From Opitutaceae bacterium (GTDB lineage: Bacteria > Verrucomicrobiota > Verrucomicrobiia > Opitutales > Opitutaceae), in contig JAIXQE010000068.1 in the NCBI GenBank assembly GCA_027485815.1, forward strand, positions 1 through 38,637: 38,637 bases of DNA, in the 5' to 3' direction. The position numbers were made by a program, and so were the translations under genes. Each line of letters opens with the position of its first letter. The stretch's first letter is position 1. Positions 6,139 to 31,862 of this stretch are shown in pieces. Below the pieces are notes generated by a model, which was not told the DNA's origin, did not search any database, and saw nothing but the letters and a program-made list of their open reading frames with translations.

Positions 6139-6399
6139 TATCGCCCTGGGAGTTGGACTAAAAATAGCGATATCAGGTACTTGCGAAAGTAGGGGCCGAA
6201 TGTCGGCTTTCCTCACGGTTAAGGCAGCCACGCGGCAAAAACGGCCGGAAAAGCGGGCCGGTAACGCCTGTGACGATCCGTTCAGACGGGATTCGTAAAG
6301 ATCCTCCGGGCGGCCCGGCGGGCGCTCCCGTTTACCTCTGAAACGGGCGGGCGGAGGGCGCGCGCGGGGCAGGCGCGGCCTCTTGGGTGGGGCGTGGGA

Positions 6400-6573: not shown

Positions 6574-6585
6574 CCCACCACTGCC

Positions 6586-14564: not shown

Positions 14565-15866
14565 TCAGGCGCCCGGGGGCGGCGCGAGGAACGGCTGCAG
14601 GGCGGCCAAGGTGCGGTCGGCCGCGCCGCGGTTGCGCGCGTGCCACGTTTCGGCCTCGCGGCCGCGGCTGGCGCGGGCGGCGGGATCGGCCAGCAGCCGG
14701 GTCGCGGCCGCGACGAGCGCGGCGGGAGTGGCGACCGTCTCCGCTGCCCCGCCGGCCAGCAGTTCCCCCGCCACGGTGCGGAAGTTGCTCATTCCCGGCC
14801 CGAACAGGAGTGGTTTGCCCAAGGCCGCGGCCTCCACCGGGCTCTGTCCCTCGGTGTGCGGGGCGAGGCTCTTGCCGACGAACACGACGTCCGCGAGGTG
14901 CGTGAGCAGCGCGAGCTCGCCCGTGGTGTCGGCGACCGCCACGTCCACCGGCGCCATCGCCGCGCCGGAGGTGCGAAAGTGGCTGCGGACCCCGGCGGCA
15001 GCCAGGGTCTGGCGCACCTCCGCCCGTCGTTCGGCGTGGCGGGGTACCAGCAGCAGCTGGGCGGCGAGGCCTTGGGCGCGGGCGTGGCGCCAGGCCTCGA
15101 CCAACGCCGCCTCTTCCCCGGGCCACGTCGAAGCCCCGAGCAGCAGCGGCCCGGCCTCCAGCCCCAGTTCCTGGCGCAACCGCTCCCGTTCCCCGGGCGG
15201 GCACGCCCGCGGGGTGACGTCGAGCTTGAGGTTGCCGGTGATGCTGACCCGGTCCGCCGCGACCCCGAGGCGGCCGAGCCGCGCGGCGTCCTGGGCCGAG
15301 GCGGCGAGGAAGCGGGTGCGGCGCCCGAGCACCAGCGGCGCCAGCCCGGGCACCCGGCTGAGGCGGCGGAAGGACCGGTCGCTCAGGCGGGCGTTGACGC
15401 AGACCACAGGCACCTCCCGGCGCTCGGCCTGATACACGTGTTCCGGCCAACGTTCGCCCTCGGCCAGCACCACCAGTTGGGGACGCAGCGCGCGCCACGC
15501 GGCCGCCGAGCAGGGCCACGCATCGAGGGGAAAGTAGGCGAGGGTGGCGGCGAGGTTGCCATAGCGCTCGGTCGCGAGCCGCCGACCGGTGCTGGTGGTC
15601 GTCGTGAGCACGATTTCCGCGCCCGCCGCGTGCAACCCCCGCAGCACCGGGCCGAGGGCGAGCAGTTCGCCGACGCTCACCGCCTGGACCCAGACGCGGG
15701 TCCGGCCGGGACTCGGCGGGGGGAGGGGAGGGAGCCAGCCGAGGCGTTGCGAGAACCCGGGCCCGTAGCCGCCCCGGCGGATCATCCGCAGCCCGTAGCG
15801 CGGGGCGAGGGCGACCAGCGCCGGCGTGAACAGGGCCCGGTAGAGCCAGAGCAGCGGCGGGGTCAC
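14565..15866 (-). CDS. waaA: 3-deoxy-D-manno-octulosonic acid transferase
   Basis: The protein has 433 residues and adds Kdo from CMP-Kdo to lipid A precursor at the inner face of the cytoplasmic membrane, a committed step in LPS assembly. Features of the family are an N-terminal hydrophobic segment (LLWLYRALFTPALVALAPRY), the SVGE motif (residues about 64-67), an Asn-Ala-Arg-Leu-Ser-Asp motif (NARLSDRSF), TGNLKLD, and in the C-terminal GT-B lobe FVGKSLAPHTEGQSPVEAA. It starts with GTG overlapping the exosortase stop codon (GTGA, 15863-15866), so translation is probably coupled. It implies a Kdo-containing lipopolysaccharide. Confidence 0.92.
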   Translation of the reverse strand: MTPPLLWLYRALFTPALVALAPRYGLRMIRRGGYGPGFSQRLGWLPPLPPPSPGRTRVWVQAVSVGELLALGPVLRGLHAAGAEIVLTTTTSTGRRLATERYGNLAATLAYFPLDAWPCSAAAWRALRPQLVVLAEGERWPEHVYQAERREVPVVCVNARLSDRSFRRLSRVPGLAPLVLGRRTRFLAASAQDAARLGRLGVAADRVSITGNLKLDVTPRACPPGERERLRQELGLEAGPLLLGASTWPGEEAALVEAWRHARAQGLAAQLLLVPRHAERRAEVRQTLAAAGVRSHFRTSGAAMAPVDVAVADTTGELALLTHLADVVFVGKSLAPHTEGQSPVEAAALGKPLLFGPGMSNFRTVAGELLAGGAAETVATPAALVAAATRLLADPAARASRGREAETWHARNRGAADRTLAALQPFLAPPPGA

Positions 15867-16858
15867 GCGCTCGGGGCCACCGGGGGCGGTCGGCCCGCGG
15901 GCAGGAGCCGGAGGTTCAGCAGCGGCAGGAGGGCGAGCAGGCCCAGGACCGTGCCGCCGAGGACCGCGTAGCCGGCGACGTCGTGCACCGTGCCTTCAAT
16001 CGCCGCGTGGCCGTAGCGGTACGCCCACGCCGTCAGGAAGAGGCTGCGGCCGAGGTTCGTCACGAAGGCCAGCAGCAGCGCGGCCACCACGAGCGCGACC
16101 TTCTTCCAGCCCTGTTGCACGAAGACCGCGGACAGGAACGATCCGGCGAAGAGGCAGGCGGTGAGGGAGCGGATCCCGGAGCAGGCGTCCTCGACCCCGA
16201 CGAGGTTGGGCTGGCCGTTGACCGGTGGCAGCGCGAGCACGTTGCCGCGTTGCTCGATCGGCAGCCCGAGGGCGTCAAAGACGAACGCCACCACCGCGAC
16301 CACCCGCCGGAGGAGGAGGAGGTTGAGCTGGGACTCCACCGCCGAGACCATCGGGGCGGAGACGAGCCAGATCAGGACGGGAAAAACGAAAAGCCCGGCG
16401 AGGCGCAGGCGGGCGTCCGCGGCGAGATTGGCGCGCCCCGGCGAGGGGCTGGCCGGGGCGTTGAGCACGAGGAGCGCGGCCGTGATGCCGGCCATGCCGA
16501 GCGTGATGGCCAGCGTGCCGGGCTGCGAGGTGCCGGCGCCGGCGCGATAGAAGGAGCCGAGGAGGAAGAACGCCGCTCCCAGCAGGAGCGCGGAGCCCGT
16601 GAGGGTGGCGAGCAGCCATCCTTGCCACCCGCGGGCGCGCGGGCTGTCCGGCGCGGCGCAGGCGGCCGCGGCGGCGCGGATCCGCGGCCAGCGGTCGTGC
16701 ACGACAAAGGCTACGAAGAGCGGCACGAGCCACCCGAACGAGTAGTCCTGCTTCACGCGCCACCAGTGCGACTGATCCCACGCGGTGAAGAGCATGAAGC
16801 CGCCGGCGAGCAGCAGGGCGAGCCCGAGGGAGCCCGGGAGGTCGGAGCGGAGTTTCAT
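15863..16858 (-). CDS. Exosortase/archaeosortase family transpeptidase
   Basis: The protein has 331 residues and is a polytopic membrane protein with about eight hydrophobic segments. The catalytic triad of the family is visible: C226 in VEDACSGIRSL, R271 in VTNLGRSLFLT and H292 in VHDVAGYAV. Exosortases cleave PEP-CTERM-type signals and transfer the proteins to the cell surface. Two such substrates are encoded in this window. The start at 16858 (MKLRSDLPG) is chosen; an ATG at 16873 is possible. A 1451-codon open frame extends further upstream, but it is antisense to the ribosomal genes and spurious. It heads an operon with waaA and the SNF2 gene and is divergent from rpsL. Confidence 0.92.
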   Translation of the reverse strand: MKLRSDLPGSLGLALLLAGGFMLFTAWDQSHWWRVKQDYSFGWLVPLFVAFVVHDRWPRIRAAAAACAAPDSPRARGWQGWLLATLTGSALLLGAAFFLLGSFYRAGAGTSQPGTLAITLGMAGITAALLVLNAPASPSPGRANLAADARLRLAGLFVFPVLIWLVSAPMVSAVESQLNLLLLRRVVAVVAFVFDALGLPIEQRGNVLALPPVNGQPNLVGVEDACSGIRSLTACLFAGSFLSAVFVQQGWKKVALVVAALLLAFVTNLGRSLFLTAWAYRYGHAAIEGTVHDVAGYAVLGGTVLGLLALLPLLNLRLLPAGRPPPVAPSA

Positions 16859-17013
16859 CCAGCCGGCGCGCATTCGGGCGGAGGGAAACCGGCTTCCTCC
16901 GGGAAGCGAGCGCGATTTTGCGCTTGTCGGTCGCGGCCCGGGTCGCTGCGCTCTTCCGCTCCGTCGGCCGACTCCGGCCGGCGTTTCCCGCAGTTTGCTC
17001 CAGATTGTGCTTG

Positions 17014-17032
17014 CCGGCGGTTTCGCCGCCGG
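17014..17032 (+). promoter_or_regulatory. Hairpin in the rpsL leader
   Basis: A 7-bp stem (CCGGCGG / CCGCCGG, loop TTTCG) is followed by TAGCGTTTTCCTCTTTTC. It could act as an attenuator of the ribosomal operon or as a terminator-like element. No convincing -35/-10 pair is seen in 16859-17013. Confidence 0.4.
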
Positions 17033-17083
17033 TAGCGTTTTCCTCTTTTCGTCCCTTTTCCCTCGTAAGAATTCACTCCGCGT

Positions 17084-17464
17084 ATGCCGACCATCAACCA
17101 ACTCGTGCGCAAAGGCCGCCGCCAGGTGACCGCCAAGTCGAAGTCCCCGGCGCTGGCGGGCAACCCCTTCCGCCGCGGCGTGTGCGTGCAGGTGATGACC
17201 CGCACCCCGAAGAAGCCGAACTCGGCCATCCGTAAGGTCGCCAAGGTCCGGCTCACGAACGGCAACGAGGTGATCTCCTACATCCCGGACGAGGGCCACA
17301 ACCTGCAGGAGCACTCGATCGTGCTCGTCCGCGGCGGCCGCGTGAAGGATCTCCCCGGCGTCCGTTACCACATCGTCCGCGGCACCTTGGACGCCACCGG
17401 CGTCGAGAAGCGCCGCCGCTCCCGTTCCAAGTACGGCGTCAAGCGCCCGAAGGCCGCCAAGTAA
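17084..17464 (+). CDS. rpsL: Small ribosomal subunit protein uS12
   Basis: The protein has 126 residues and sits at the decoding centre, where it monitors tRNA selection. The conserved loops TPKKPNSA (residues 41-48) and [12 protein letters not shown] (84-95) are intact with Lys43 and Lys88, the positions whose substitution gives streptomycin resistance elsewhere. The C-terminus SKYGVKRPK is standard. It opens the str part of the cluster. rpoB/rpoC are not upstream; the exosortase operon diverges there instead. The leader before the ATG is pyrimidine-rich and lacks a clear Shine-Dalgarno. Confidence 0.98.
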
Positions 17465-17491
17465 CCCCGTTCGCCCCCCGCCACTTCCGCC

Positions 17492-17965
17492 ATGTCCCGC
17501 CGCCACCGAGCCGAGAAGCGTCAGGTTCAGCCCGATATCCGCTACCAGAGCCCCCTGGTCGCGCACCTCGTCAATGTGATCATGAAGGGGGGCAAGAAGA
17601 ACCTTGCCCAGCGCATTGTCTACGGAGCCTTTGAGAAGGTCTCCGAGAAGCTGCAGAAGGGCGACCCGGTCGACCTCCTGCTGGGCGCGCTGGAAAACGC
17701 CCGCCCCCGCCTCGAGGTGAAGAGCCGCCGCGTCGGTGGCGCCACCTACCAGGTGCCGGTCGAAATCTCCTTTGAGCGCCAGGAATCGCTCGCCCTCCGC
17801 TGGATCGTGGCCGCCGCCGGCGCCCGCAAGGGCATCCCGATGCGCGATGCCCTCGCCGCGGAAATCGTCGACGCCTACAACAACACGGGCTCGGTGGTGA
17901 AGAAGAAGGAAGACACGCACAAGATGGCCCAGGCCAACCGCGCCTTCGCCCACCTGCGCTGGTAA
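17492..17965 (+). CDS. rpsG: Small ribosomal subunit protein uS7
   Basis: The protein has 157 residues, the usual length. It nucleates assembly of the 30S head by binding the 3' domain of 16S rRNA and contacts E-site tRNA. Family features are [10 protein letters not shown] at the N-terminus, [19 protein letters not shown], the [15 protein letters not shown] hairpin, and the end RAFAHLRW. It follows rpsL by 27 bases. The spacer (CCCCCCGCCACTTCCGCC) is pyrimidine-rich with no Shine-Dalgarno. Confidence 0.98.
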
Positions 17966-17983
17966 CCGCCCGCCCTCCCGATC

Positions 17984-20173
<2,190 letters not shown>

Positions 20174-20192
20174 ACCCCGTTCCTCTTCCGCC

Positions 20193-20501
20193 ATGAAAGG
20201 CCAGCGCATCCGCATCAAACTCCAGGGCTTCGACTATCGCGTGATCGATCAGTCGGCTCAGGACATCGTCGAGACGGCCAAGCGGTCGGGCGCCCGGGTT
20301 TCCGGCCCGATCCCGCTGCCCACGCGCATCGAGAAGCTCTCGGTCAACCGCTCCCCCCACGTCGACAAGAAGTCGATGGAGCAGTTCGAGACCCGCACGC
20401 ACAAGCGGCTGATCGACATCATCGAGCCGACCGCCCAGACGGTGGACGAGCTGAAGAAGCTCAACCTGCCGTCCGGCGTCGACATCACCATCAACGTCTG
20501 A
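20193..20501 (+). CDS. rpsJ: Small ribosomal subunit protein uS10
   Basis: The protein has 102 residues. It is a 30S head protein that also partners NusB in antitermination. It shows the family sequences [35 protein letters not shown] and [12 protein letters not shown]. The start at 20193 is 19 bases after fusA; a longer open frame overlapping fusA is not needed. It begins the S10 section, with a structured 157-base spacer before rplC. Confidence 0.98.
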
Positions 20502-20566
20502 GCCCGCCCGGCTGCTCACCACCCTCCACCCTGCCTTTTCCTCCGCCCGGATTCGTCTCTCTACAG

Positions 20567-20613
20567 TTAGCAGACGCCGATGTTCCCCCCGGGGAACCTC
20601 CCGGCCCCGCTAA
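20567..20613 (+). promoter_or_regulatory. Nested stem-loop in the rpsJ-rplC spacer
   Basis: Outer arms TTAGC (20567-20571) and GCTAA (20609-20613) enclose a perfect inner palindrome GTTCCCC-CC-GGGGAAC (20582-20597). A further imperfect hairpin, GGTCCG / CGGAACC, follows at 20618-20636, before the rplC ATG at 20659. This is the largest spacer in the S10 section and may be a leader for ribosomal-protein autoregulation or an internal promoter region. No known leader class is recognised. Confidence 0.45.
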
Positions 20614-20658
20614 AGTAGGTCCGTCCAACGGAACCCACTCCACCTACCGCTTAGCCCA

Positions 20659-21378
20659 ATGATCTCCGAAATTCTAGGTAAGAAACTCGGGATGACCCAG
20701 GTTTACGACGCACAGAATGTGCTCGTGCCGGTCACCGTGGTCGAGGCCGGACCCTGCGCCGTGGTCCAGGTCAAGACCGCCGCCCGCGATGGCTATCACG
20801 CCGTGCAGCTGGGCTTTGCCCGCCAGAAGGAAAAGAACGCCTCCGCCGGCGAAATCGGCCATGCGAAGAAGGCCGGGCTCGACGCCGCTCCCCGGGTGCT
20901 GGCCGAAGTCCGCCTCGAGGCCGAAGCCAAGCTCAAGGTGGGTGACGTGGTCACCGCCGCGGCCTTCACCGAGGGCCAGCTGGTCGATGTGATCGGCGTG
21001 ACCAAGGGCAAGGGCTTCCAAGGCGTGGTCAAGCGCTGGCGGGTCGCGGGCGGACCGGCCACCCACGGTTCGATGTTCCATCGTCGGATCGGCTCCATCG
21101 GCATGCGCCAGACCCCTGGCCGCTCGTGGAAGAACCAGTCGATGCCCGGCCATATGGGCTCCGAGCGCCGCACGGTGCAGAACCTGCGCGTGGTGCGAGT
21201 CATTGCCGAGCGCAACCTGATCCTCGTGAAGGGCGCCATTCCCGGCGCGAACGGTGACGACGTGCTGGTGCGCACGGCCATCAAGGGCCAGCGCGCGGTG
21301 GTCGCCCCTGCGGCCGCCCCGGCTCCCGCCAAGGAGGCGAAGCCGGCCAAGGAAGCCAAGCCCGCAGCCAAGAAGTAA
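20659..21378 (+). CDS. rplC: Large ribosomal subunit protein uL3
   Basis: The protein has 239 residues and is an early 50S assembly protein near the peptidyl transferase centre. Recognisable are MISEILGKKLGMTQVY, GKGFQGVVKRW and SMPGHMGSERRTVQNLRVV, which contains the loop reaching into the subunit core. The last 25 or so residues are an Ala/Pro/Lys tail (APAPAKEAKPAKEAKPAAKK) beyond the normal C-terminus, one of several such tails in this cluster. Confidence 0.97.
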   Translation: MISEILGKKLGMTQVYDAQNVLVPVTVVEAGPCAVVQVKTAARDGYHAVQLGFARQKEKNASAGEIGHAKKAGLDAAPRVLAEVRLEAEAKLKVGDVVTAAAFTEGQLVDVIGVTKGKGFQGVVKRWRVAGGPATHGSMFHRRIGSIGMRQTPGRSWKNQSMPGHMGSERRTVQNLRVVRVIAERNLILVKGAIPGANGDDVLVRTAIKGQRAVVAPAAAPAPAKEAKPAKEAKPAAKK

Positions 21379-21392
21379 AGGAGAACCCTGAG

Positions 21393-22028
21393 ATGAAACT
21401 CGTAGTTTTCAGTTCCGACGGCAAGTCCAGCAGCGAGCGCGATTTCGCGAACGTCCCGACCTTCGAGGGCGACAAGGGCCTGCAGGCGCTCAAGGAGGTC
21501 ATCGTCGCGATCAACGCGAACAACCGCCAAGGCACGCACTCGACCAAGACCCGCGGCGAGGTCCGCGGCGGCGGCAAGAAGCCGTGGCGCCAGAAGGGCA
21601 CTGGCCGCGCCCGCGCCGGCTCCATCCGCTCCCCCCTGTGGGTCGGTGGCGGCGTGGTCTTCGGCCCCAAGCCCCGCGACTATTCGAAGAAGGTCAATGC
21701 GCGCGTCCGCCGCCTCGCCTTCAGCCGTGCGCTCTTCGACCGCTGCTCCGCGGGCGAACTCGCCGTCATCGAGGCCTTCCAGGCCGGCGTCGCCAAGACC
21801 AAGGCGATGAATGAGGTCGTCACCCGCATCGCTCCCAAGGGCCGCGTGCTCCTGGTCGATGCCGGCTTCGACGCCGTGACCTCCCGCGCCTCCCGCAATC
21901 TCGAGCGCGTGTCCCTGCAGGACGCGGCCCAGCTCAACACCCTGGATCTCGCCCAGTACGCGAAGATCATCGTCAGCACGAAGGCGCTCGAGGCCATCCT
22001 GGCCCGCGCCAATGGAGGAAAGAACTAA
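21393..22028 (+). CDS. rplD: Large ribosomal subunit protein uL4
   Basis: The protein has 211 residues and forms part of the polypeptide exit tunnel; in E. coli it represses its own operon. The tunnel loop is seen as TRGEVRGGGKKPWRQKGTGR followed by ARAGSIRSPLWVGGG. It has a genuine Shine-Dalgarno, AAAGGAG, 9 bases before the ATG, unlike many neighbours. Its stop codon shares one base with the rplW start (TAATG), indicating translational coupling. Confidence 0.97.
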   Translation: MKLVVFSSDGKSSSERDFANVPTFEGDKGLQALKEVIVAINANNRQGTHSTKTRGEVRGGGKKPWRQKGTGRARAGSIRSPLWVGGGVVFGPKPRDYSKKVNARVRRLAFSRALFDRCSAGELAVIEAFQAGVAKTKAMNEVVTRIAPKGRVLLVDAGFDAVTSRASRNLERVSLQDAAQLNTLDLAQYAKIIVSTKALEAILARANGGKN

Positions 22029-22309
22029 TGCAAGCCGACAAGATCCTCAAGCTCGTCCGCCTCACGGAGAAGTCGAACAAGCTCTCCTCGACGCTGGGCC
22101 AGTACACGTTCGAGGTCCACGGTCACGCCACCAAGGACCAGATCGCGGTCGCGGTGGAGGAGACCTTCAAGGTCACCGTCCGCCGGGTGAACACCCAGAA
22201 CTACCGCGGCAAGAACAAGCGCAGCCGCCAGGGCCGGCCCAGCGTCGGTTCCGACTACAAGAAGGCGATCGTGACCCTCAAGGCCGGCGACAAGATCGAA
22301 CTGGTCTGA
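22028..22309 (+). CDS. rplW: Large ribosomal subunit protein uL23
   Basis: The protein has 93 residues. It lies at the tunnel exit and docks trigger factor and SRP. Typical features are the N-terminal KLVRLTEKSNKLSS segment, YTFEVHGHATKDQIAVAVE and the basic loop NYRGKNKRSRQGRPSVGSDYK. It overlaps rplD by one base; GGAGG within the rplD end serves as ribosome-binding site. Confidence 0.97.
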   Translation: MQADKILKLVRLTEKSNKLSSTLGQYTFEVHGHATKDQIAVAVEETFKVTVRRVNTQNYRGKNKRSRQGRPSVGSDYKKAIVTLKAGDKIELV

Positions 22310-22337
22310 GCCCGCGCCCTCCCCCGGAGATCCCCCC

Positions 22338-23207
22338 ATGCCCATTCATTCCTTTCGTCCGCTGACGCCCGCCGGCCGTTTCACGGCCCTGAACAAGACG
22401 TCGGGCCAGCTTTCCCGCAAGCGCCCCGAGCGCGGCCTCACCCAGTCCAAGAACAAGACGGGTGGCCGCAACGTCTACGGCCGCGTGACCTCCCGCCATC
22501 GCGGCGGTGGCCACAAGCAGCTGTACCGCATCGTGGACTTCAAGCGCGCCCGGCTCGACCTGCCCGCCCGCGTCCAGGCCCTCGAGTACGATCCGAACCG
22601 CTCCGCGAACCTCGCGCTCATCGCCTATGCGGACGGCGTGAAGGCCTACATCCTCGCCCCCAAGGGCCTGAAGGTGGGTGACACGATCGTGACCTCCAAC
22701 AAGGCCACGACCAACGACTACACGGTCGGCAACAACTTCCCCCTCTCAATCATCCCGCCGTCGACCCAACTGCATTGCGTCGAGCTCGTGCCGGGACGCG
22801 GCGCGCAGATCGCCCGCAGCGCCGGCGCCAGCCTCGAGCTGGTGGCGATCGAGGACGGTCAGGCGACGCTCAAGATGCCCTCGGGCGAGCTGCGCTACGT
22901 CAACGCCAAGTGCCGCGCCACGATCGGTGAGGTCGGTAACGGCGACCACAACCAGCAGTCCCTCGGCAAGGCCGGCCGGTCCCGCTGGCTCGGCATCCGC
23001 CCGACGGTCCGCGGTATGGCGATGAACCCGGTCGACCACCCCAACGGTGGCGGTCAGGGCAAGTCCAAGGGCGGTGGCGGCCGCCAGCAGCTGGTGTCCC
23101 CTTGGGGCCAGTTGGCGAAGGGTTTCCCGACGCGCCGCCGGTCCAAGCCGTCGAACGCCCAGATCATCGTCCACCACAACGGCCGCAAGCCGCGCGGTCA
23201 GAAGTAA
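22338..23207 (+). CDS. rplB: Large ribosomal subunit protein uL2
   Basis: The protein has 289 residues and is a conserved 50S protein needed for subunit association and peptidyl transfer. Family sequences are GGRNVYGRVTSRHRGGGHKQLYR, YDPNRSANLALI and the C-terminal MNPVDHPNGGGQGKS. The usual HPHGGGEG motif reads HPNGGGQG here, keeping the first His but changing two other residues; this is probably a lineage variant. GGAG lies about 8 bases before the ATG. Confidence 0.97.
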   Translation: MPIHSFRPLTPAGRFTALNKTSGQLSRKRPERGLTQSKNKTGGRNVYGRVTSRHRGGGHKQLYRIVDFKRARLDLPARVQALEYDPNRSANLALIAYADGVKAYILAPKGLKVGDTIVTSNKATTNDYTVGNNFPLSIIPPSTQLHCVELVPGRGAQIARSAGASLELVAIEDGQATLKMPSGELRYVNAKCRATIGEVGNGDHNQQSLGKAGRSRWLGIRPTVRGMAMNPVDHPNGGGQGKSKGGGGRQQLVSPWGQLAKGFPTRRRSKPSNAQIIVHHNGRKPRGQK

Positions 23208-23225
23208 TCCAGCCCCCTCCGCACC

Positions 23226-23501
23226 ATGGCACGTTCCATCAAGAAGGGCTTCTTCGTCGACTACCACCTCCTCGAGAAGATCGAGAAGGCGGTCAAGGCC
23301 GGCACCAAGAAGCCGATCCAGACCTGGTCTCGCCGGTCGACCATCACCCCCGACTTCGTCGGCCACACGTTCAGCGTGCACAATGGCAAGGCGTTCGTCG
23401 CGGTGTACGTCACCGAGAACATGGTCGGCCACAAGCTCGGGGAGTTCGCCCCGACCCGCGTGTTCAAGGCGCACGGCGGCATGACCCGCAAGGAAGTCTG
23501 A
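23226..23501 (+). CDS. rpsS: Small ribosomal subunit protein uS19
   Basis: The protein has 91 residues and is a 30S head protein that forms an intersubunit bridge with uL5. It has the family sequences [38 protein letters not shown] and [14 protein letters not shown]. It follows rplB by 18 bases of pyrimidine-rich spacer. The next gene, starting 8 bases downstream, is not rplV but an exported protein. Confidence 0.98.
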
Positions 23502-23509
23502 TTTTCCCG

Positions 23510-23827
23510 ATGCGTCGTTTCCTTTCCCTCTTCCTGGCGGGTGTGCTCCCGATCGCGGCCCAAGCGGCGGCGACGGCGCCCCGCGCCGGCACCGTGCTGG
23601 CGGTGGAAGCGGGAAGCGTCGCGGACCTCGTGGTCCTCGATGCCGGGTTCGACGGCGGTCTGCGGCAGGGCATGCTCTGCCGCCTGGTCCGCGAGGGTCG
23701 CGAGATCGGCGAGGTCGTCCTCGTCGCGCTCCGTCCCGCGGTCAGCGCCGCCCTCATCACCCGCCTGGCGGGGGACCAAGCGGTCCGCCCCGGGGACGTC
23801 GCCCTCCTGAAGCTGTTAAAATCCTAA
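23510..23827 (+). CDS. Small exported protein inside the S10 operon (FlgT_C-like fold suspected)
   Basis: The protein has 105 residues. MRRFLSLFLAGVLPIAAQAAA is a good signal peptide. The mature part (about 85 residues) follows a pattern seen in beta-barrel domains such as the C-terminal domain of FlgT: a glycine-led strand (GTVLAVEAG), VVLDAGFDGGLRQGM, CRLVREGREIGEVVLVAL, then VRPGDVALL. This resemblance is by eye. It starts 8 bases after rpsS and ends 77 bases before rplV, interrupting the nearly universal rpsS-rplV adjacency, so it should be transcribed at ribosomal-protein levels. Codon use looks like its neighbours. Function unknown. The open frame extends back into rplB, but that part is antisense-like noise. 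Confidence 0.75.
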   Translation: MRRFLSLFLAGVLPIAAQAAATAPRAGTVLAVEAGSVADLVVLDAGFDGGLRQGMLCRLVREGREIGEVVLVALRPAVSAALITRLAGDQAVRPGDVALLKLLKS

Positions 23828-23904
23828 CCCAGATCGACCAACCAAAGGGTAAGGCGCCCCGCGCCGTTATCGCCGGCCTTTCCCGCCGGAATCCTTAAGC
23901 CACC

Positions 23905-24249
23905 ATGGAAGTCCAAGCCCTCACTCGCTACGCGCGCATGTCGCCCAAAAAGATGCGCGAGGTCGCCCGCACCATCCAAGGCCGTCCGGCCGCGGAGGCG
24001 GTCGAGTTCCTGAGCCTCGTGCCGCGCAAGTCCGCGCGCCTGATCGCCAAGACGCTGAAGAGCGCGATCGCGAACGCCGAGAACAACCGCAACCTCTCGG
24101 CGGACTCGCTGACCGTGCGCAGCGCGGTGATCGAGAACGGCCCCGTGCTGAAGCGCTTCAAGGCGGGCGCCCGCGGCACCGCGATGCCCCGGCGCAAGAA
24201 GATGTCCCACATCCGCATCATCCTCTCGGACGGCACCGACAACTCGTAA
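23905..24249 (+). CDS. rplV: Large ribosomal subunit protein uL22
   Basis: The protein has 114 residues and lines the exit tunnel near the constriction, where macrolide resistance changes occur in other bacteria. It shows RYARMSPKKMREVARTIQGR, KSAIANAENNRNL and the beta-hairpin GARGTAMPRRKKMSHIRIIL. The 77-base upstream spacer contains a short hairpin (CCGGC/GCCGG) and no strong Shine-Dalgarno. Confidence 0.98.
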   Translation: MEVQALTRYARMSPKKMREVARTIQGRPAAEAVEFLSLVPRKSARLIAKTLKSAIANAENNRNLSADSLTVRSAVIENGPVLKRFKAGARGTAMPRRKKMSHIRIILSDGTDNS

Positions 24250-24261
24250 TCCCCTTTTCCC

Positions 24262-24894
24262 ATGGGCCAAAAGACAAATCCCGTTGGTTTCCGCCTCGCC
24301 GTCCGCCGCAACTGGCAGTCCCGCTGGTACGCGGGCAAGAAGGATTTCGGCCGGTTGCTCGCCGAGGACCAGCTCATCCGCACCAAGCTGATGGAGAAGC
24401 TGAAGCAGGCCTCCGTGCCGCGCATCTTCATCGAACGCGCCTCGAACCGCGTGCGGGTCAAGATCTACACCGCCCGCCCCGGCATCGTGATCGGGCGCAA
24501 GGGCCAGGAGATCGAGAAGATCAAGGAGGAGCTGGCGAAGCTGACCGGCAAGGAGATCCTCCTCGACATCCAGGAGGTGAAGAAGCCCGAGATCGAGGCC
24601 GCCCTCGTCGCCGAGAACGTGGCCCTCCAGCTCGAGCGCCGCATCGCCTTCCGCCGCGCGATGAAGAAGGCCGTCGAGATGGCCATGGCCCTCGGGGCCG
24701 AAGGCATCCGGATCCAGTGCTCGGGCCGCCTTGGCGGTGCCGACATCGCCCGCCGCGAGTGGCAGCGCAAGGGCCGCGTGCCGCTGCACACCCTGCGCGA
24801 GAACATCGATTACGGGTTCGCCGAGGCCCTCACCGTCTACGGCAAGATCGGCGTGAAGTGCTGGATCTGCAAGCAGGAGTCCGACAACTCCTGA
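24262..24894 (+). CDS. rpsC: Small ribosomal subunit protein uS3
   Basis: The protein has 210 residues and forms the mRNA entry site with uS4 and uS5 and helps unwind mRNA. The N-terminus [12 protein letters not shown] is standard. The type II KH domain has its GxxG loop as GRKG in [19 protein letters not shown]. The C-terminal domain contains [25 protein letters not shown]. The spacer before it reads CCCCTTTTCCC directly up to the ATG, one of the clearest pyrimidine leaders here. Confidence 0.98.
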
Positions 24895-24930
24895 GCCGCC
24901 CGCCCAACCCTCTAACCGGAGAATTCTCCC

Positions 24931-25353
<423 letters not shown>

Positions 25354-25376
25354 GCGTCCAACCCTTTCCGACCGCC

Positions 25377-25583
25377 ATGACTTCCAAGGAAATCCGCGAA
25401 CTCGCGCCCGCCGAGATCTCGACCAAGCTCCGCGACATCCGCGGCCAGCTGCTCCAGCTCCGCCTGCGCAAGCAGACCGGCCAGGTCGAGAAGACCCACG
25501 AGCTGCGCGCCCTCCGCAAGGACATCGCCCGCCTCGAGACCATCCTGAATCAGAAGAAGGCCCAGGCGCCGAAGGCCGCCTAA
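25377..25583 (+). CDS. rpmC: Large ribosomal subunit protein uL29
   Basis: The protein has 68 residues, an alpha-helical pair located at the tunnel exit next to uL23. The core motif [21 protein letters not shown], with the LR/RK spacing of the family, is clear. A short QAPKAA tail extends the C-terminus. The spacer before it (CCCTTTCCGACCGCC) has no Shine-Dalgarno. Confidence 0.96.
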
Positions 25584-25600
25584 TCCTCGCCCCCCTAGCC

Positions 25601-25975
25601 ATGTCCTCTCCCGCTCCCGCCGCGCGCAGCACGCGCAAGACCCAGGTCGGCTTCGTTTCGAGCCGCTCGGGCGACAAGTCCATCAAGGTCACCGTCGCCT
25701 ACAAGACCCCCCATCCGCTCTACCACAAGGTCGTCAACCGCCAGACCGTCCTCCACGTCCACGACGAGGCGAACGAGACCCGCGTTGGCGACAAGGTGGA
25801 GGTGATGGAGACCCGTCCCCTCAGCCGCCTGAAGCGCTGGCGGGTCGTCGCGGTGCTCCAGAAGGCGATTGCCGCCGAGGGTACCGCCATCAGCGAGGCG
25901 GATGTCGCCGCCGCCGTGCCCACCAAGACCACCAAGCCCGCCGAGGCCGCCCCCGCCGCCCCGACGTCGGCCTGA
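25601..25975 (+). CDS. rpsQ: Small ribosomal subunit protein uS17 with C-terminal tail
   Basis: The protein has 124 residues; typical length is about 85. It is a primary 16S rRNA binder with an OB fold. The core is recognised by [19 protein letters not shown], the [14 protein letters not shown] segment and [15 protein letters not shown] tail of about 35 residues rich in Ala, Thr, Pro and Lys follows. Pyrimidine-rich leader; the start at 25601 is the only ATG upstream of the core. Confidence 0.95.
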
Positions 25976-26000
25976 ACCGCCCCGTCCCGAAGGAAGAGCC

Positions 26001-26366
26001 ATGATCCAACTGCGTTCCATTCTCGAGGTCGCCGACAATACCGGCGCCCGCAAGGCCGCCCTCATCCAACGGATGGGGCAGAACACGCCCTATGCCCACG
26101 TCGGCGACGTCGTCACCGTGCACATCAAGGAGAGCACGACCGACGCCACCGTGAAGAAGGGTGAGGTCGCCAAGGCCGTCGTCGTCCGCACCAAGGCCCC
26201 CATCCGCCGCGCGGACGGAAGCTACCTGCGGTTCGACAGCAATGCCATCGTCATCATCGACGCGACGAACAACCCCAAGGGCACCCGCATCTTCGGCCCC
26301 GTCGCCCGCGAGCTGCGCGCGCGGAACTTCATGAAGATCATCTCGCTCGCTCCGGAGGTCCTCTAA
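26001..26366 (+). CDS. rplN: Large ribosomal subunit protein uL14
   Basis: The protein has 121 residues, at the intersubunit face. The start at 26001 ([18 protein letters not shown]) fits the family and has AAGGAAG as ribosome-binding site; a longer open frame from 25869 overlaps rpsQ and is rejected. Conserved stretches are [25 protein letters not shown] and [17 protein letters not shown]. Confidence 0.98.
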
Positions 26367-26367
26367 C

Positions 26368-26640
26368 ATGCAGAAGTTCCACGTCAAACGCGGCGACCAG
26401 GTGGTCGTCATCGCCGGGGCCCACAAGGGCAAGTCCGGCAAGGTGCTCGAGATCCTCGCCGGCAGCCAGCGGGCCCGGGTCGAGGGGGTGGCGATGATCA
26501 AGCGCCACCTCAAGAAGTCCCAGGAGCACCCGCAGGGCACGATCGCGGAGCGCGAGGGCTCGGTCCACCTGAGCAACCTGATGCTCCAGGCGAATTTCGA
26601 CGCCAGCGGCCGCCGCAAGGCCGCCGCCCCCGCCGCCTGA
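26368..26640 (+). CDS. rplX: Large ribosomal subunit protein uL24
   Basis: The protein has 90 residues and initiates 50S assembly. The KOW motif is seen as KRGDQVVVIAGAHKGKSGKVL (residues about 6-26), and the HLKKSQEHPQGTIAEREGSVHLSN region follows. It starts one base after the rplN stop, with GGAGG in the rplN end. A 109-base C/T-rich spacer separates it from rplE; in E. coli the uS8 regulatory target lies near this junction. Confidence 0.97.
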   Translation: MQKFHVKRGDQVVVIAGAHKGKSGKVLEILAGSQRARVEGVAMIKRHLKKSQEHPQGTIAEREGSVHLSNLMLQANFDASGRRKAAAPAA

Positions 26641-26749
26641 TCGCACAGACGGCGCTTGCCATCCCCGGTTCCTTCCCGCGACCCTTCGCCCTTTTCCCCC
26701 CTCCCTTCGTCCTCCTTCCGTCCGGGGTCGGTAATCCCGGACACCTTCC

Positions 26750-27316
26750 ATGAGCACCGTTCCCAGTCTGAAGAAGCTTTACCTCGAGCAGGTGGTTCCC
26801 GAACTCACCCGCACCCGGGGCTACAAGAACAAGCACCAGGTCCCGCGCCTGGTGAAGATCGCGATCAACACCGGCATTGATGCCGATGCGGACAAGAACC
26901 AGATCGCGGACATCCAGCGGGATATCGCCCAGATCGCCGGCCAGAAGCCGGTGCTCGCCCGTTCGCGCAAGGCGATCGCCAACTTCAAGCTGAAGCAGGG
27001 CCAGGTCGTGGGCTGCCACGTGACCCTCCGCGGCGACGCGATGTGGGAATTCCTCTGCCGCCTCCTGGCGGTGGCGCTCCCGACCATCCGTGACTTCCGC
27101 GGCGTGCCGAGCAAGTTCGATGGCCAGGGCAACTACAACCTCGGCATCACCGACCATTCCATCTTCCCGGAAATCACGGTGGAGAACGTCAAGAAGCACA
27201 TCGGACTGGACCTCACCCTCGTGACGACGGCCAAGACCGATGATGAGGGGCGCGAGTTGCTCCGGCTGCTGGGGATGCCCTTCCGCCGCGTGGAATCCGC
27301 CGCCAAGGCCGCCTAA
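26750..27316 (+). CDS. rplE: Large ribosomal subunit protein uL5
   Basis: The protein has 188 residues. It binds 5S rRNA in the central protuberance and contacts P-site tRNA. Typical sequences are [75 protein letters not shown] and the [14 protein letters not shown] end. No Shine-Dalgarno is seen; the leader ends GGACACCTTCC. Confidence 0.98.
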
Positions 27317-27333
27317 TCCCGACCCTTTACGTC

Positions 27334-27639
27334 ATGCCGAAGACCTCCGCCATCGAGCGCAACCAGAAGCGCATCCGCCTCGTCGCCAAGTTCGCCGCGA
27401 AGCGTGCCGAACTGAAGGCCGCCCTGATCAACCCCGCCACGACCGACGAGGAGTTCTTCGCGGCGCAGAAGAAGCTGCAGAAGCTCCCCCGCAACTCGTC
27501 CCCGGTCCGCATCCGCAACCGCTGCTCCCTCAGCGGTCGGCCCCGGGCTTACAACCGCAAGTTCGGCGTCTCCCGTATCCAATTCCGCGAACTCGCCCTT
27601 GCCGGCAAGATCCCCGGCGTCGTCAAATCCTCCTGGTAA
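27334..27639 (+). CDS. rpsN: Small ribosomal subunit protein uS14 (long, zinc-free type)
   Basis: The protein has 101 residues, the length of the zinc-independent form; no CxxC pairs are present, in contrast to the 61-residue zinc form. Conserved parts are [38 protein letters not shown] and the end GVVKSSW. It is placed in the 30S head near the A site and follows rplE by 17 bases. Confidence 0.98.
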
Positions 27640-27662
27640 TTTCCCTGCTGGCCGGCGGGGGT

Positions 27663-27680
27663 GGGGGCCTTCGGGTCCCC
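27663..27680 (+). promoter_or_regulatory. UUCG-tetraloop hairpin in the rpsN-rpsH spacer
   Basis: GGGGGCC-TTCG-GGTCCCC forms a 7-bp stem (one G-U pair) with the very stable UUCG loop. There is no T-run, so it is not a classical terminator. It may protect or separate mRNA segments or take part in uS8-dependent feedback. Confidence 0.45.
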
Positions 27681-27720
27681 CGGATATGACCCGCCGTCCA
27701 ACCTCCAACCTTCATCCATC

Positions 27721-28113
27721 ATGACCGATCCGATCAGCGACTTCCTCACCCGGCTCCGGAACGCCTCCAAGGCGCGTCTGGAGGACTGCGTGATCCCGCA
27801 TTCCAAGCTCAAGGAAAGCATCCTGGGCATCCTCAAGGCCGAGGGCTATGTGACCGACTTCAGCAAGGGCACGGACGCCCAGGGCCACCCCACGCTGGTC
27901 GCGAAGATGAAGTATGTGGCGGGAGCCCCCGCCATCACCGGCCTCACCCGCGTCTCCACGCCGGGCCGTCGCCTCTATTACGCCTACACCGACGTGCCCC
28001 GGGTCCTCAACGGCCTCGGCATCGCGATCGTCTCCACCTCCAAGGGCGTGCTCAAGGACGCCGACTGCCGCCGTCAGAAGGCCGGCGGGGAGCTCCTTTG
28101 CAACGTCTGGTAA
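27721..28113 (+). CDS. rpsH: Small ribosomal subunit protein uS8
   Basis: The protein has 130 residues, a 16S central-domain binder and, in E. coli, the translational repressor of the spc operon. The start at 27721 gives the conserved MTDPISDFLTRLRNASKA N-terminus; the open frame extends 20 codons upstream through the hairpin and is rejected. The C-terminal IVSTSKGVLKDADCRRQ-type motif and GGELLCNVW end are present. Confidence 0.98.
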   Translation: MTDPISDFLTRLRNASKARLEDCVIPHSKLKESILGILKAEGYVTDFSKGTDAQGHPTLVAKMKYVAGAPAITGLTRVSTPGRRLYYAYTDVPRVLNGLGIAIVSTSKGVLKDADCRRQKAGGELLCNVW

Positions 28114-28143
28114 GCCGCTGCTCAACCTCAGCCCATCCATTCC

Positions 28144-28680
28144 ATGAGCCGCATCGGCAAACAACCCGTTTCCATCCCCGACAAGGTCAAGGTCTCCGTC
28201 ACCGGCGGAACCGTGCTCGTCGAGGGCCCCAAGGGCAAGGTGCAGAAGGCCTTCGCCCCCGCCGTCAAGGTGACGGTGGCCGACAAGAACGTCACTTTCG
28301 CTCCCACCGAAGAGACCCGTTTCGCCCGGGCGATGTACGGCACCGCGCGTTCCGTGGTTGCCGGGATGGTCAAGGGCGTCACGGAGGGCTACGCGAAGGA
28401 GCTGGAAATCCAAGGCGTCGGCTTCAAGGCCAACCTGAAGGGCAACCAGCTTGACCTCGCGCTGGGCTACTCGCACCCGATCCTGATGACGATCCCGGAG
28501 GGGATCAAGGTGACCGTGACCGATCAGACCAAGCTGAAGGTCGAGGGTGCGGACAAGCAGCTCGTCGGGGCGGTGACCGCGGAGATCCGCAGCTATTACC
28601 CGCCGGAGCCCTACAAGGGCAAGGGCGTGCGCATCGTCGGCGAGCGCGTCCGCCGCAAGGAAGGCAAGACCGTGGCCTAA
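28144..28680 (+). CDS. rplF: Large ribosomal subunit protein uL6
   Basis: The protein has 178 residues and two homologous domains near the sarcin-ricin loop. It shows MSRIGKQPVSIPDKVKV, the middle GVTEGYAKELEIQGVGF and the C-terminal YYPPEPYKGKGVRI followed by GERVRRKEGKT. It follows rpsH by 30 bases with a C-rich leader. Confidence 0.98.
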   Translation: MSRIGKQPVSIPDKVKVSVTGGTVLVEGPKGKVQKAFAPAVKVTVADKNVTFAPTEETRFARAMYGTARSVVAGMVKGVTEGYAKELEIQGVGFKANLKGNQLDLALGYSHPILMTIPEGIKVTVTDQTKLKVEGADKQLVGAVTAEIRSYYPPEPYKGKGVRIVGERVRRKEGKTVA

Positions 28681-28697
28681 GGCCGGGAGAATCCAGA

Positions 28698-29060
28698 ATG
28701 AAAACCATCAACAAAGCCCGCCTGCTGCAAAACCGCCGCTGGCGCATCCGCAAGAAGGTCAATGGGACGGCCGCCCGCCCCCGCCTCGCGGTCCGTTTCA
28801 CTTCCAAGCACGTGTACGCCCAGGCGATCAACGACGAGGCCGGCGCGACGCTGGTGTTTCTCTCGAGCCTCGACTCCGCGCTGCGCGAGCAGAAGCTGAA
28901 GGCCAACCTGGCGGGCGCGAAGGCGCTCGGCCAGGCCTTCGCCGCCAAAGCCAAGGCGGCCGGCATCACCGCGGTGGTCTTCGACCGCAGCGGCGCCCCG
29001 TATCACGGCAAGGTCAAGACGTTCGCCGACGCCGCGCGCGAGGGCGGGCTCCAATTCTAA
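28698..29060 (+). CDS. rplR: Large ribosomal subunit protein uL18
   Basis: The protein has 120 residues and binds 5S rRNA. Recognisable are [34 protein letters not shown] and [27 protein letters not shown] lies about 8 bases before the ATG, a genuine ribosome-binding site. Confidence 0.98.
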
Positions 29061-29067
29061 GCACCGC

Positions 29068-29724
29068 ATGAGCACCGAAAATTCTTCCGAGACTGTTGTG
29101 ACCCCGGTGGAGGCCGCCCCGGCCGCCCCGGCTGCCGCGCCCGAGCGCCCCGCGCGCGAGGGTCGTGGGGGTGGCGGTGGCTTCCGTGGCCCCGGTGGCG
29201 GGCGCGGTCCTCGCCGCGATGGCGGCCGCCGTGACTCGCGGGACAAGCCCCAGGAGGGCGATGGTCCGTCGATGATCGAGAAGGTCGTCTTCATCAACCG
29301 CTGCGCCAAGGTCGTGAAGGGCGGTCGCCGCTTCTCCTTCGCGGCGCTCGCCGTGGTCGGCGACGGCAAGGGCCGCGTCGGCATCGGCTACGGCAAGGCC
29401 AATGAGGTTCCGGATGCCATCAAGAAGGGCACCGCGAACGCCCACAAGCACCTGGTGAACGTGAAGCTCAAGGGTGACACGATCCCCCACGACGTCTTCG
29501 GCCAGTACGACGGCGGCAAGGTGCTCCTGCGCCCGGCCTCGCCCGGCACCGGCCTGATCGCCGGCGGCGGCGTCCGCGCGGTCCTCGAGGCGGCAGGGGT
29601 GAAGAACATCCTCACCAAGTCGATGGGGTCCTCGAACCACATCGCCGTGGTCCACGCCACCCTCGACGGCCTGCGCAAGCTCCGCCTCGCCGGTGACATC
29701 GCCCAGGTGCGCCAGACCGCCTGA
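29068..29724 (+). CDS. rpsE: Small ribosomal subunit protein uS5 with long N-terminal extension
   Basis: The protein has 218 residues; typical is about 165. It acts at the mRNA entry channel and in decoding fidelity. The first 65 or so residues are an extension rich in Pro/Ala, then Gly/Arg ([19 protein letters not shown]), which resembles RGG-type RNA-binding tails. The core is standard: [34 protein letters not shown] and [16 protein letters not shown]. It begins 7 bases after rplR. rpmD (uL30), usually next, is absent. Confidence 0.97.
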
Positions 29725-29754
29725 GTCCCCTTAGTCCCTCCCTATCATCCGAGT

Positions 29755-29779
29755 CGCCCGGCCTCCTCATCGCCGGGCG
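29755..29779 (+). promoter_or_regulatory. Perfect 8-bp hairpin in the rpsE-rplO spacer
   Basis: CGCCCGGC and GCCGGGCG pair around a 9-base loop, ending 18 bases before the rplO ATG and just upstream of its TGAGGA ribosome-binding site. No T-run. It occupies the place where rpmD normally lies. Confidence 0.5.
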
Positions 29780-29797
29780 GCGCCCTGAGGAAAATCC

Positions 29798-30244
29798 ATG
29801 AAGCTCCACGAACTGAAGAACGTCCCCGGTGCGGTGCACCGCAAGAAGCGCGTTGGCTGCGGCGAAGGCGGCGGCCACGGCAAGACCAGCACCAAGGGCG
29901 GCAAGGGCCAGACGGCCCGCTCCGGCGGCAGCATCCGCCCCGGCTTTGAAGGCGGTCAGATGCCCCTGTACCGCAAGCTCCCGCACCGCGGGTTCAACAA
30001 CTACAACCACCGGGTGGAGATCGCCGTGGTGAACATCGGGGCCCTCGCGGGTCTGGATGCCAAGGTGACCGAGGTGGACGCCGCGGTGCTCGCCAGCCAC
30101 GGGCTGATCCGGGCGGGCGAGAAGTCCGTGAAGATCCTCGGCGACGGCGAGCTCGGCCGCGCCCTCAAGGTCACGGCGGCCCGGTTCTCCGGCTCGGCCA
30201 AGGCCAAGATTGAAAAGGCCGGCGGCCAGGCCATCGTGGCCTGA
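29798..30244 (+). CDS. rplO: Large ribosomal subunit protein uL15
   Basis: The protein has 148 residues, a late 50S assembly protein. The N-terminal glycine-rich region (KKRVGCGEGGGHGKTSTKGGKG and SGGSIRPGFEGGQMPLYRKLP) is typical. The C-terminal globular part ends KIEKAGGQAIVA. GAGGA lies about 7 bases before the ATG. Confidence 0.98.
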   Translation: MKLHELKNVPGAVHRKKRVGCGEGGGHGKTSTKGGKGQTARSGGSIRPGFEGGQMPLYRKLPHRGFNNYNHRVEIAVVNIGALAGLDAKVTEVDAAVLASHGLIRAGEKSVKILGDGELGRALKVTAARFSGSAKAKIEKAGGQAIVA

Positions 30245-30343
30245 GCCCCGTTTCCGTTCCCCTCCCACTCCCTCCGTTCCGGCTCGTAGGGCCTTGACGG
30301 GGTGGAGTGGCTCCCAGCGCCCTCCCTCGCAATCCTCCCCGCT

Positions 30344-31849
30344 GTGTTTTCCGCCTTCACGAATTCCCTGAAGATCCCGGAGCTGCGCTCGCGCATCTTC
30401 TACACCCTGTCGCTGCTCTTCGTCTCGCGGGTCGCCTCGATCATCCCGCTGCCGGGCATCGATCCTGCCCCCCTCCAGAAGTTCTTCTCCGAGCAGGCGG
30501 CCTCGGGTGCGGGTAACCTCCTGGGATTGTACAACATGTTCACCGGCGGCGCCCTGACCAAGGGCGCGATCGCCGCGCTGGGCATCATGCCGTACATCAG
30601 CGCCTCGATCATCTTCCAGCTGATGACCGCGGTGGTGCCGGCGCTCAGCCGCCTGCAGCAGGAGGGCGACGTCGGCCGCCAGAAGCTCACGCAGTACACC
30701 CGTTACGCGACGGTCCTGATTTGCCTCATCCAAGGCACGCTGCTGATCCTGGCGCTGAATAATCCCGGCCAGCTCTTCCCCGGTTACGACGTTTCCACCT
30801 ACGGCCCGATCGTCATCATCAGCAAGTGGAGCTTCATCCTCACGTCCGTGATCTTCATGACCGCGGGCACCATGCTGCTGATGTGGCTGGGCGAGCAGAT
30901 CACGCAGCGCGGGATCGGCAACGGCGTGTCTTTGCTCATCACCGTGGGCATTTTGGCCGACATCCCCGGCGCCGCCCAGCAGACCTACAGCCTGTTCTTC
31001 AAGCCGGTGGGCACCGGCACCAGCCTCGGCGTCCCGCAGGCCGTCGTGATGCTGACCCTGTTCGTGGTCGTCACGATGGGCATCATCGCCGTCGTCCAGG
31101 CCCAGCGGAAGATTCCGGTCCAGTACGCGAAGCGCGTCGTCGGCAACAAGGTGATGGGCGGCCAGAGTTCCTTCCTCCCCCTCAAGGTGAACTATTCGGG
31201 CGTGATGCCCGTCATCTTCGCCAGCGCCATTTTGCTCTTCCCCCAGCAGATCTTCTCCTGGATCGGGGCGACCTACAATTTGAAGTTCCTGACGGAGTTT
31301 TCGCAGAACCTGCTGCGCGGCCACTGGACCTACTACGCGATCTACACGACCCTGATCCTGTTCTTCAGCTACTTCTGGGTCTCAGTGATGTTCAAGCCGA
31401 TCCAGATCGCGGACGACCTGAAGAAATACGGCGGCTATGTCCCCGGCGTGCGCCCGGGTGAGCCCACGGCGCAGTTCCTCGACTTCATCATGACGCGCCT
31501 GACGTTGGCCGGCGCGATTTTCCTCACGGTCATCGCGATCATGCCGGACGTGCTGCTCTTCGAGTTGAACGTGCCGACCCGCATCGCGTACTTCTTTGGT
31601 GGCACCGGAATGCTGATTACGGTCGGCGTCATCCTCGACACGATGCGCCAGATCGAGACCTTCCTGCTCCAGCGCCACTACGACGGCTTCCTGAAGAAGG
31701 GCCGGATCCGGGCGCGGAGCGCGGGCCCGCAGCAGGCTTCGGCCGGCGAGGCCCTGAGCCAGGAGGCCGTGATGAAGCTCGCCCTGCCGATGCTGGGATT
31801 GCTCCTGCTCGGCACCGCGATCTGGGCCTACAAGGCCTTTTTGAAATAA
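30344..31849 (+). CDS. secY: Preprotein translocase subunit SecY
   Basis: The protein has 501 residues and is the channel-forming subunit of the Sec translocon, with about ten transmembrane segments. Clear family sequences are SLKIPELRSRIFYTL at the start, GIMPYISASIIFQLMTAV, ITQRGIGNGVSLLI, and near the C-terminus FKPIQIADDLKKYGGYVPG followed by VRPGEPTAQFL. I choose the GTG at 30344 because it yields the usual FSAFTNSLKIPEL N-terminus; a GTG at 30302 would add 14 residues. Neither has a strong Shine-Dalgarno. It is followed by an adenylate-kinase-like gene and map, the normal spc order. Confidence 0.96.
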   Translation: MFSAFTNSLKIPELRSRIFYTLSLLFVSRVASIIPLPGIDPAPLQKFFSEQAASGAGNLLGLYNMFTGGALTKGAIAALGIMPYISASIIFQLMTAVVPALSRLQQEGDVGRQKLTQYTRYATVLICLIQGTLLILALNNPGQLFPGYDVSTYGPIVIISKWSFILTSVIFMTAGTMLLMWLGEQITQRGIGNGVSLLITVGILADIPGAAQQTYSLFFKPVGTGTSLGVPQAVVMLTLFVVVTMGIIAVVQAQRKIPVQYAKRVVGNKVMGGQSSFLPLKVNYSGVMPVIFASAILLFPQQIFSWIGATYNLKFLTEFSQNLLRGHWTYYAIYTTLILFFSYFWVSVMFKPIQIADDLKKYGGYVPGVRPGEPTAQFLDFIMTRLTLAGAIFLTVIAIMPDVLLFELNVPTRIAYFFGGTGMLITVGVILDTMRQIETFLLQRHYDGFLKKGRIRARSAGPQQASAGEALSQEAVMKLALPMLGLLLLGTAIWAYKAFLK

Positions 31850-31862
31850 GGCCTTTACTTCC

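Follow-up and report, generated by a model that had tools for sequence, protein, structure and literature searches.

An exported-looking protein gene linked to rplV at the rpsS-rplV junction of Verrucomicrobiota

In bacteria, the gene order around rpsS-rplV is generally regarded as almost invariant, and an envelope gene inside a ribosomal-protein operon is known from secY of the spc operon. The gene described here, X, resembles secY in being a membrane or export gene that is co-located with ribosomal genes. It differs in that secY is a universal translocon gene, whereas X is dispensable and was seen in the one phylum sampled. For the C-terminal domain of X, the closest described protein is TsaP, which consists of a LysM domain followed by a C-terminal FlgT_C-like domain. 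According to the accessible part of one report, TsaP is a secretin-associated envelope protein of the type IV pilus machine (PMC7541494). TsaP and X are alike in that domain, for which TsaP was the best PDB match of a domain-only profile, but X is encoded in a ribosomal operon, no LysM domain was detected in the protein, and its presence hardly follows that of secretins. FlgT_C itself (PF16538) gave weak matches to long forms of the X family and to a paralogue in the same genome, but not to X. The layout of the long form, with anchor, coiled coil, and beta-domain, recalls MreC, and there is a borderline profile match; however, profile-profile comparison does not confirm it, and a true MreC is present elsewhere in the genome. 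Finally, CT421.2 is, like X, an uncharacterized protein typical of this superphylum; it is described as a PVC signature protein of about 53 to more than 80 aa in the accessible part of its source, and X was set against it by that description only (PMC3444138). In the open-access literature, PMC2474590 and PMC6920513 included, seen in part and with subscription journals mostly outside the search, we found no description of X, its place, or the RNA element reported below, an absence that is not proof of novelty.

The X gene and its surroundings

The window, that is, the whole 38,637-nt stretch of DNA that was analyzed, contains an S10 operon with the usual gene order, into which X is placed as follows.

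23226..23501, plus strand: rpsS (ribosomal protein S19), the upstream neighbor of X
23510..23827, plus strand: X, 105 aa plus stop, ATG start, exported-looking, short form of the family
23510..23566, plus strand: residues 1-19 of X, which resemble a signal peptide with a possible cut at AQA^A (by inspection)
23579..23821, plus strand: C-terminal domain of X, common to long forms, FlgT_C/TsaP-C-like
23844..23893, plus strand: conserved RNA element with two hairpins in the X-rplV interval
23905..24249, plus strand: rplV (ribosomal protein L22), the gene linked to X
24262..24894, plus strand: rpsC, the next operon gene, which is also 3' of X-rplV in ten examined genomes with rpsS elsewhere

The X start codon follows the rpsS stop after 8 nt, and the rplV ATG follows the X stop after 77 nt. 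A preliminary description of this DNA had proposed an exported-looking 105-aa open reading frame in this position, inside the S10 operon between rpsS and rplV. Our analysis bears this out, and the position proved to be far more conserved than the window alone could show. By inspection, the N-terminus of X (MRRFLSLFLAGVLPIAAQA^A) resembles a signal peptide. Elsewhere in the window there is an exosortase at 15866-16948 on the minus strand (PF09721, E 3.8e-38), and two ORFs, at 2782-3537 (minus) and 6394-7329 (plus), have tails that by eye are PEP-CTERM-like.

X belongs to a family with two forms. The short form, which prevails in the window's order, is made up of a signal peptide and the domain in about 105-190 aa. 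The long form, which prevails outside the order, has mostly 160-400 aa, with a hydrophobic N-terminus, a coiled-coil-like region, and the same C-terminal domain, although some long-form ORFs were taken from the first possible start codon and may start too early. When compared with hhalign, the two forms make one family (99%, E 3e-18). In four examples, the middle of the long form was rich in E, K, R, Q, L, and A and poor in G and P; this region reads as a coiled coil and draws coiled-coil matches. With respect to the N-terminus, a hydrophobic stretch was found in all 27 members of profile A1 but also in 52% of shuffles, while an AXA-like site was present in 26 and K/R near the start in 24, both counted without a shuffle control. 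Because so many shuffles pass, N-terminal hydrophobicity by itself is weak evidence of export. Eight rows of a larger set of 84, in which four genomes are present twice, had no strongly hydrophobic stretch within the first 90 residues, on a looser scan that about half of shuffles (49%) pass; these are perhaps start-site or contig-end errors.

Our searches place the C-terminal domain near several known families and in none of them. The short form gave nothing convincing against Pfam, NCBIfam, or the PDB, where it retrieved a LysM protein at E 0.1. With the domain-only profile A7, four PDB chains were found at E<=10: TsaP (3jc8) was the best, followed by an RND efflux protein, MreC, and another LysM protein. 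The TsaP match had an E value of 0.0014 for the whole chain and was made up of two colinear stretches, which alone had E values of 0.61 and 270; it was weaker with the long-form profile. Among Pfam families, FlgT_C matched the long forms most often (4 of 14 members at E<=1, the lowest E value being 0.03), but neither X nor 27 short forms matched it at E<=1, and a PF16538 search of X's own genome did not list X at E<=10. Wherever FlgT_C scores were shown, they were below the curated cut-off of 27 bits, including 12.8 bits for the long form and 16 bits for C63, the paralogue in the same genome, and membership in FlgT_C was rejected on this ground. Membership in TsaP was likewise rejected, with only the C-terminal domain being similar; Pfam searches of the X family, which for the long forms covered the best 25 of 70 families listed, found no LysM domain. 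Because the TsaP, FlgT_C, and MreC matches are weak or unconfirmed, we name the domain FlgT_C/TsaP-C-like and file X in no family. The FlgT_C-like pattern noted in the preliminary description remains a fair description, and the wider profiles point to a remote resemblance to FlgT_C and TsaP. The claim does not extend to PF16538 membership, and that X has a FlgT_C-like domain should be read as a weakly supported guess from sequence comparison. Structure models of X were poor, with a mean pLDDT of 46.4 from the single sequence and 56.5 from four sequences, probably reflecting a shallow alignment, and a Foldseek search returned 0 matches at E<=0.001. The paralogue, a 253-codon ORF (G000:C63; L004, 38908-39162), is a second protein that combines a coiled coil with a C-terminal domain of this kind, and weaker, paralogue-like matches recur in the phylum.

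Distribution of X and its link to rplV

Among near relatives, X is common and its position is constant. In a scan of contigs with the window protein, the three close relatives were MAGs, two assigned to Verrucomicrobia and one to Opitutae (isolate ErkenSummer). Matches at E<1e-4 were obtained in 30 of 57 genomes searched, including the window's own (ten families, one order), and X is thus conserved beyond chance. X adjoins rplV in all 33 loci that we read (L001, L006-L037) and is flanked by both rpsS and rplV in 32 of them, L025 being cut by a contig end; three pairs within the 33 (L006/L010, L007/L011, and L008/L012) are probably the same genomes. Of 26 congeners, 18 carry X and 8 gave no match below E 0.01, which makes X dispensable. 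For one of the eight (G022), the absence was confirmed by reading a short gap without X at L144. In ten pairwise comparisons among five close relatives, dN/dS was 0.08-0.37 for X, 0-0.14 for rpsS, and 0-0.12 for rplV. X is under purifying selection, which is weaker than that on its two neighbors. The preliminary description had held that absence from near relatives combined with a lack of purifying selection would speak against its proposal; what we found is a gene that is missing from some relatives, yet constrained where it occurs.

At the scale of the phylum, profile A1, made from 27 X members, matched 110 of 240 genomes at E<=0.001; within the order it matched 109 of 223, and both counts include paralogues. 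Using Pfam profiles, we placed rpsS and rplV in 123 genomes of the order and 135 of the phylum; these samples overlap, and joining them gave 226 genomes with a placed rplV, in which the window's order is over-represented and about a dozen of which also supplied rows to the profile. The distance from the rpsS domain to the rplV domain was less than 110 nt in 59 genomes, 110-250 nt in 24, and 250-2000 nt in 93. In the other 50, the two genes were far apart or not on one contig, some of these being contig ends or missing rpsS matches rather than proven splits. Among the matches listed, 74 of 75 at E<1e-10 were directly upstream of rplV. The share was 14 of 20 for E values between 1e-10 and 1e-6 and 7 of 47 for those between 1e-6 and 1e-3, a class that is incomplete because the phylum-wide matches were listed to an E value of about 1.6e-4. 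The 75th strong match, which closely follows rpsS on a different contig, has the look of an assembly fragment. Strong X members are bound to one place, directly before rplV, and the weaker matches elsewhere, mostly in longer ORFs, are taken for paralogues. One genome (G097) has two X copies on different contigs (C92:17421-17687 and C227:118-399), one after rpsS and one before rplV, probably reflecting an assembly break at X.

We counted a gene in the X-rplV family when its C-terminal domain was in an ORF directly upstream of rplV, as is the case for X itself. In 80 gap regions, which were picked to cover long, middle, short, and split gaps rather than at random, the domain was found in an ORF ending just before rplV in 57. 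Because the profile had been iterated on these ORFs, they were rescored family by family with held-out profiles: all 57 scored 27.5-83.6 bits, while the best non-member ORF scored 4.4-6.1 bits. Matches and gap reading together put X before rplV in at least 114 of the 226 genomes and at least 37 of 63 families. The number of genomes is a lower bound because 80 gaps were read, among them only 28 of the 50 genomes with rpsS and rplV apart. A survey of this interval across verrucomicrobial genomes had been suggested in the preliminary description. X was kept in every sampled genome of several families (14/14 in f29; 8/8 each in f8, f11, f19, and f20; 7/7 in f24). No X was found in 26 of the 63 families, several of which have genomes near 1 Mb.

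Our results also show that the X-rplV link persists where rpsS lies elsewhere. Of 28 loci read in which rpsS does not adjoin rplV in the assembly, 23 have X directly before rplV and five (L106, L114, L116, L117, and L120) had no X found. At L115, and perhaps at L160, the contig starts close to X, and the apparent split may be no more than a contig end. By eye, the genes before X in split loci look non-ribosomal and differ between families. Ten split genomes were picked because they carry X; in all ten, rplV is followed by rpsC and rplP, and within about the first 1.2 kb after rpsS the other six ribosomal queries had no match in any. A hairpin followed by T's is visible 3' of rpsS in all five of these ten whose rpsS side was read in coding direction, one of them with a weak T-run.

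The history of X was examined on an L22 tree, a short one of 104 columns and 80 chosen rows with a midpoint root. X occurs on both sides of that root, and its presence and absence call for at least 13 changes, 9 of which are forced by supported branches, compared to 20 in shuffles. A single supported branch unites 24 of the 28 split loci, with f62, f54, and f42 outside. The simplest reading would be an ancestral X with repeated loss. Apparently, X has been at the rpsS-rplV junction since before most families of the phylum parted.

A conserved RNA element before rplV

An RNA element, about 45-80 nt long, lies directly before rplV in the window's family. It has two hairpins, with a consensus that is roughly AAAG-[GGYAR..YURYC]-G-[CC..GG]-AAUC. 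In an alignment of 17 sequences, 95.0% of cells pair compared to 84.5% in shuffles, and changes on both sides of a pair occur in 23 cells compared to 6.8. The covariation score was 0.360 against 0.168 in shuffles, and fell to about 0.1 or less when the partner was slid by one column; further pair types, at 13 versus 12.3 in shuffles, were not in excess. With 33 distinct matches, 95.8% were paired and there were 47 such cells versus 14.4, in an alignment that is model-fitted and leans towards the model. The window sequence alone did not fold clearly better than shuffles (z -1.2). No Rfam match at E<=1 within 17000-32000 overlaps the element. The sole Rfam match was to a guanidine-II riboswitch inside X on the minus strand, with 22.2 bits where 32 are needed (E 0.76), and was taken as chance.

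The element occurs with and without X. The RNA model, which was built from X-bearing loci only, finds it in seven X-less loci (L144-L147 and L149-L151) and not in X-less L148. In whole-genome searches, 29 of the family's 37 genomes had it, once each save for two weak second matches, with its place beside rplV checked in all but a few genomes (e.g., G002, G004, G005, and G032); outside the family it was present in 1 of 20 genomes (E 0.04). The element is a candidate leader that would control rplV and the following genes independently of X. In two 0.92-Mb genomes of family f32 (G287 and G305, loci L130 and L131), 160 and 325 nt lie between the rpsS stop and the L22 domain, with no long ORF and no X domain found and with blocks that by eye are shared; the gap is possibly a decaying X or leader. 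At four X-less loci (L152-L155, from f37, f39, f44, and f49), the distance from rpsS to the L22 domain is nonetheless 75-110 nt, with hairpins predicted in L153 and L154 without a shuffle control, and these families may have other junction elements.

What X may do

Our preferred reading, which we hold tentatively and at somewhat less than an even chance, is that X is an envelope protein, old in this phylum and inherited vertically, that is encoded by the cistron before rplV and whose supply follows the ribosomal mRNA. X would share its mRNA with L22 and the ribosomal proteins that follow, and would be exported by Sec. The short form would then be cut free into the periplasm; in the long form, the N-terminus would stay as an anchor and the coiled coil would serve as a spacer. 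The beta-rich domain, of the FlgT_C/TsaP-C kind, might serve as a structural clamp or as part of a ring, bound to a partner that is in the outer membrane or associated with the wall, and carriage on a ribosomal-protein mRNA would make the supply of X follow growth rate. Both a signal-peptide-like or anchor-like N-terminus and the repeated loss of X appear supported by the sequences. A simple sigma-70 consensus scan of 23000-24300 detected no promoter-like site, and no terminator-like site was found on the plus strand of that interval, which is consistent with co-transcription of X and is not proof of it. Against an envelope protein stand the poor structure models, the lack of a convincing family match, frequent loss, the 8 of 84 rows without a strongly hydrophobic start, and codon use below that of the ribosomal neighbors. 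Specifically, codon adaptation was 0.535 for X and 0.70-0.74 for rpsS, rplV, rplN, and fusA, none of which were in the reference set. Because of this difference, X is probably translated less than these four genes, and an output equal to that of ribosomal proteins is disfavored. That an envelope protein tuned to ribosome production, as the preliminary description put it, would be a necessity is argued against by this codon use, the repeated loss on the L22 tree (at least 9 forced changes), and the 8 of 26 congeners without a match.

Loss is also what would be expected if X were a neutral passenger that entered the operon once and was kept mainly because it is difficult to excise without harming rplV. 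The 26 families in which no X was found and the low codon adaptation fit this idea, which we regard as unlikely, though the likeliest of the alternatives. Nevertheless, X is under purifying selection, keeps its link with rplV where other genes have taken the place upstream of it, and is present in all sampled genomes of f29, f8, f11, f19, f20, and f24.

Next in standing, and also unlikely, is that X takes the part of TsaP in this phylum and is an accessory ring protein at the secretin of the type IV pilus or of type II secretion. The PDB match of the domain profile suggests such a role, and in the accessible part of one study the PilQ secretin is reported to be the outer-membrane protein of highest abundance in Akkermansia (PMC4960237). 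In the order, a secretin was found in 58 of 59 genomes with X and 48 of 52 genomes without X, a difference in the right direction that does not reach significance (Fisher p 0.18). Yet, X lacks a detectable LysM domain, and its presence hardly tracks secretins, because these are nearly universal (117 of 123 genomes of the order), most X-less genomes have one, and an X-bearing genome (G114) had no secretin match.

Alternatively, X could act in cis, with its translation and its capture by the export machinery setting the expression of rplV and downstream genes, either as a SecM-like monitor or as a tether of the mRNA to the membrane. We consider this doubtful, and rank it below a role at the secretin. 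In its favor, X is the cistron directly before rplV even where no ribosomal gene is seen upstream, its start is signal-peptide-like, and in the window's family the junction also carries the RNA element. However, conservation of X is in the domain rather than the C-terminal tail, the RNA element is found with and without X, and some members exceed 300 aa. In addition, the SecM and RAPP/RAGP arrest motifs were found at the C-terminus in 0 of 84 rows, and a SecM-like secretion monitor was rejected for that reason. A broader version, to which we give a slim chance, would make the front of rplV a phylum-wide point of coupling between ribosome and envelope: the export state of nascent X, or X by a return signal, would adjust L22 and downstream genes, and the RNA element would share this control or have taken it over in the window's family.

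The least probable reading, that X is a divergent MreC-like elongasome component with membrane anchor, coiled coil, and beta-barrel, we consider very improbable: the long-form profile does reach MreC (9dvb) at E 0.003 over the coiled coil and the start of the barrel, and NCBIfam MreC models match at E 0.0005-0.02, each in one or two of 14 members, but hhalign against MreC of the same order gave a probability of 1.6-4.9% (E 0.008-0.03), the X region was absent among the matches listed for MreC (PF04085), canonical MreC occurs in 36 of 38 genomes and on another contig in the window's genome, the short form has no coiled coil, and the other PDB matches of the long-form profile are mostly plain coiled coils.

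Our findings bear on a part of the bacterial chromosome whose gene order seemed settled. The rpsS-rplV junction is a natural breakpoint, the site of a protein insert, of an RNA element, and of operon splits. In this phylum, a gene for an exported-looking protein occupies the junction, and it stayed with rplV when rpsS and rplV separated. How envelope growth is geared to ribosome synthesis is a long-standing question, and the X-rplV pair offers a testable handle on it.
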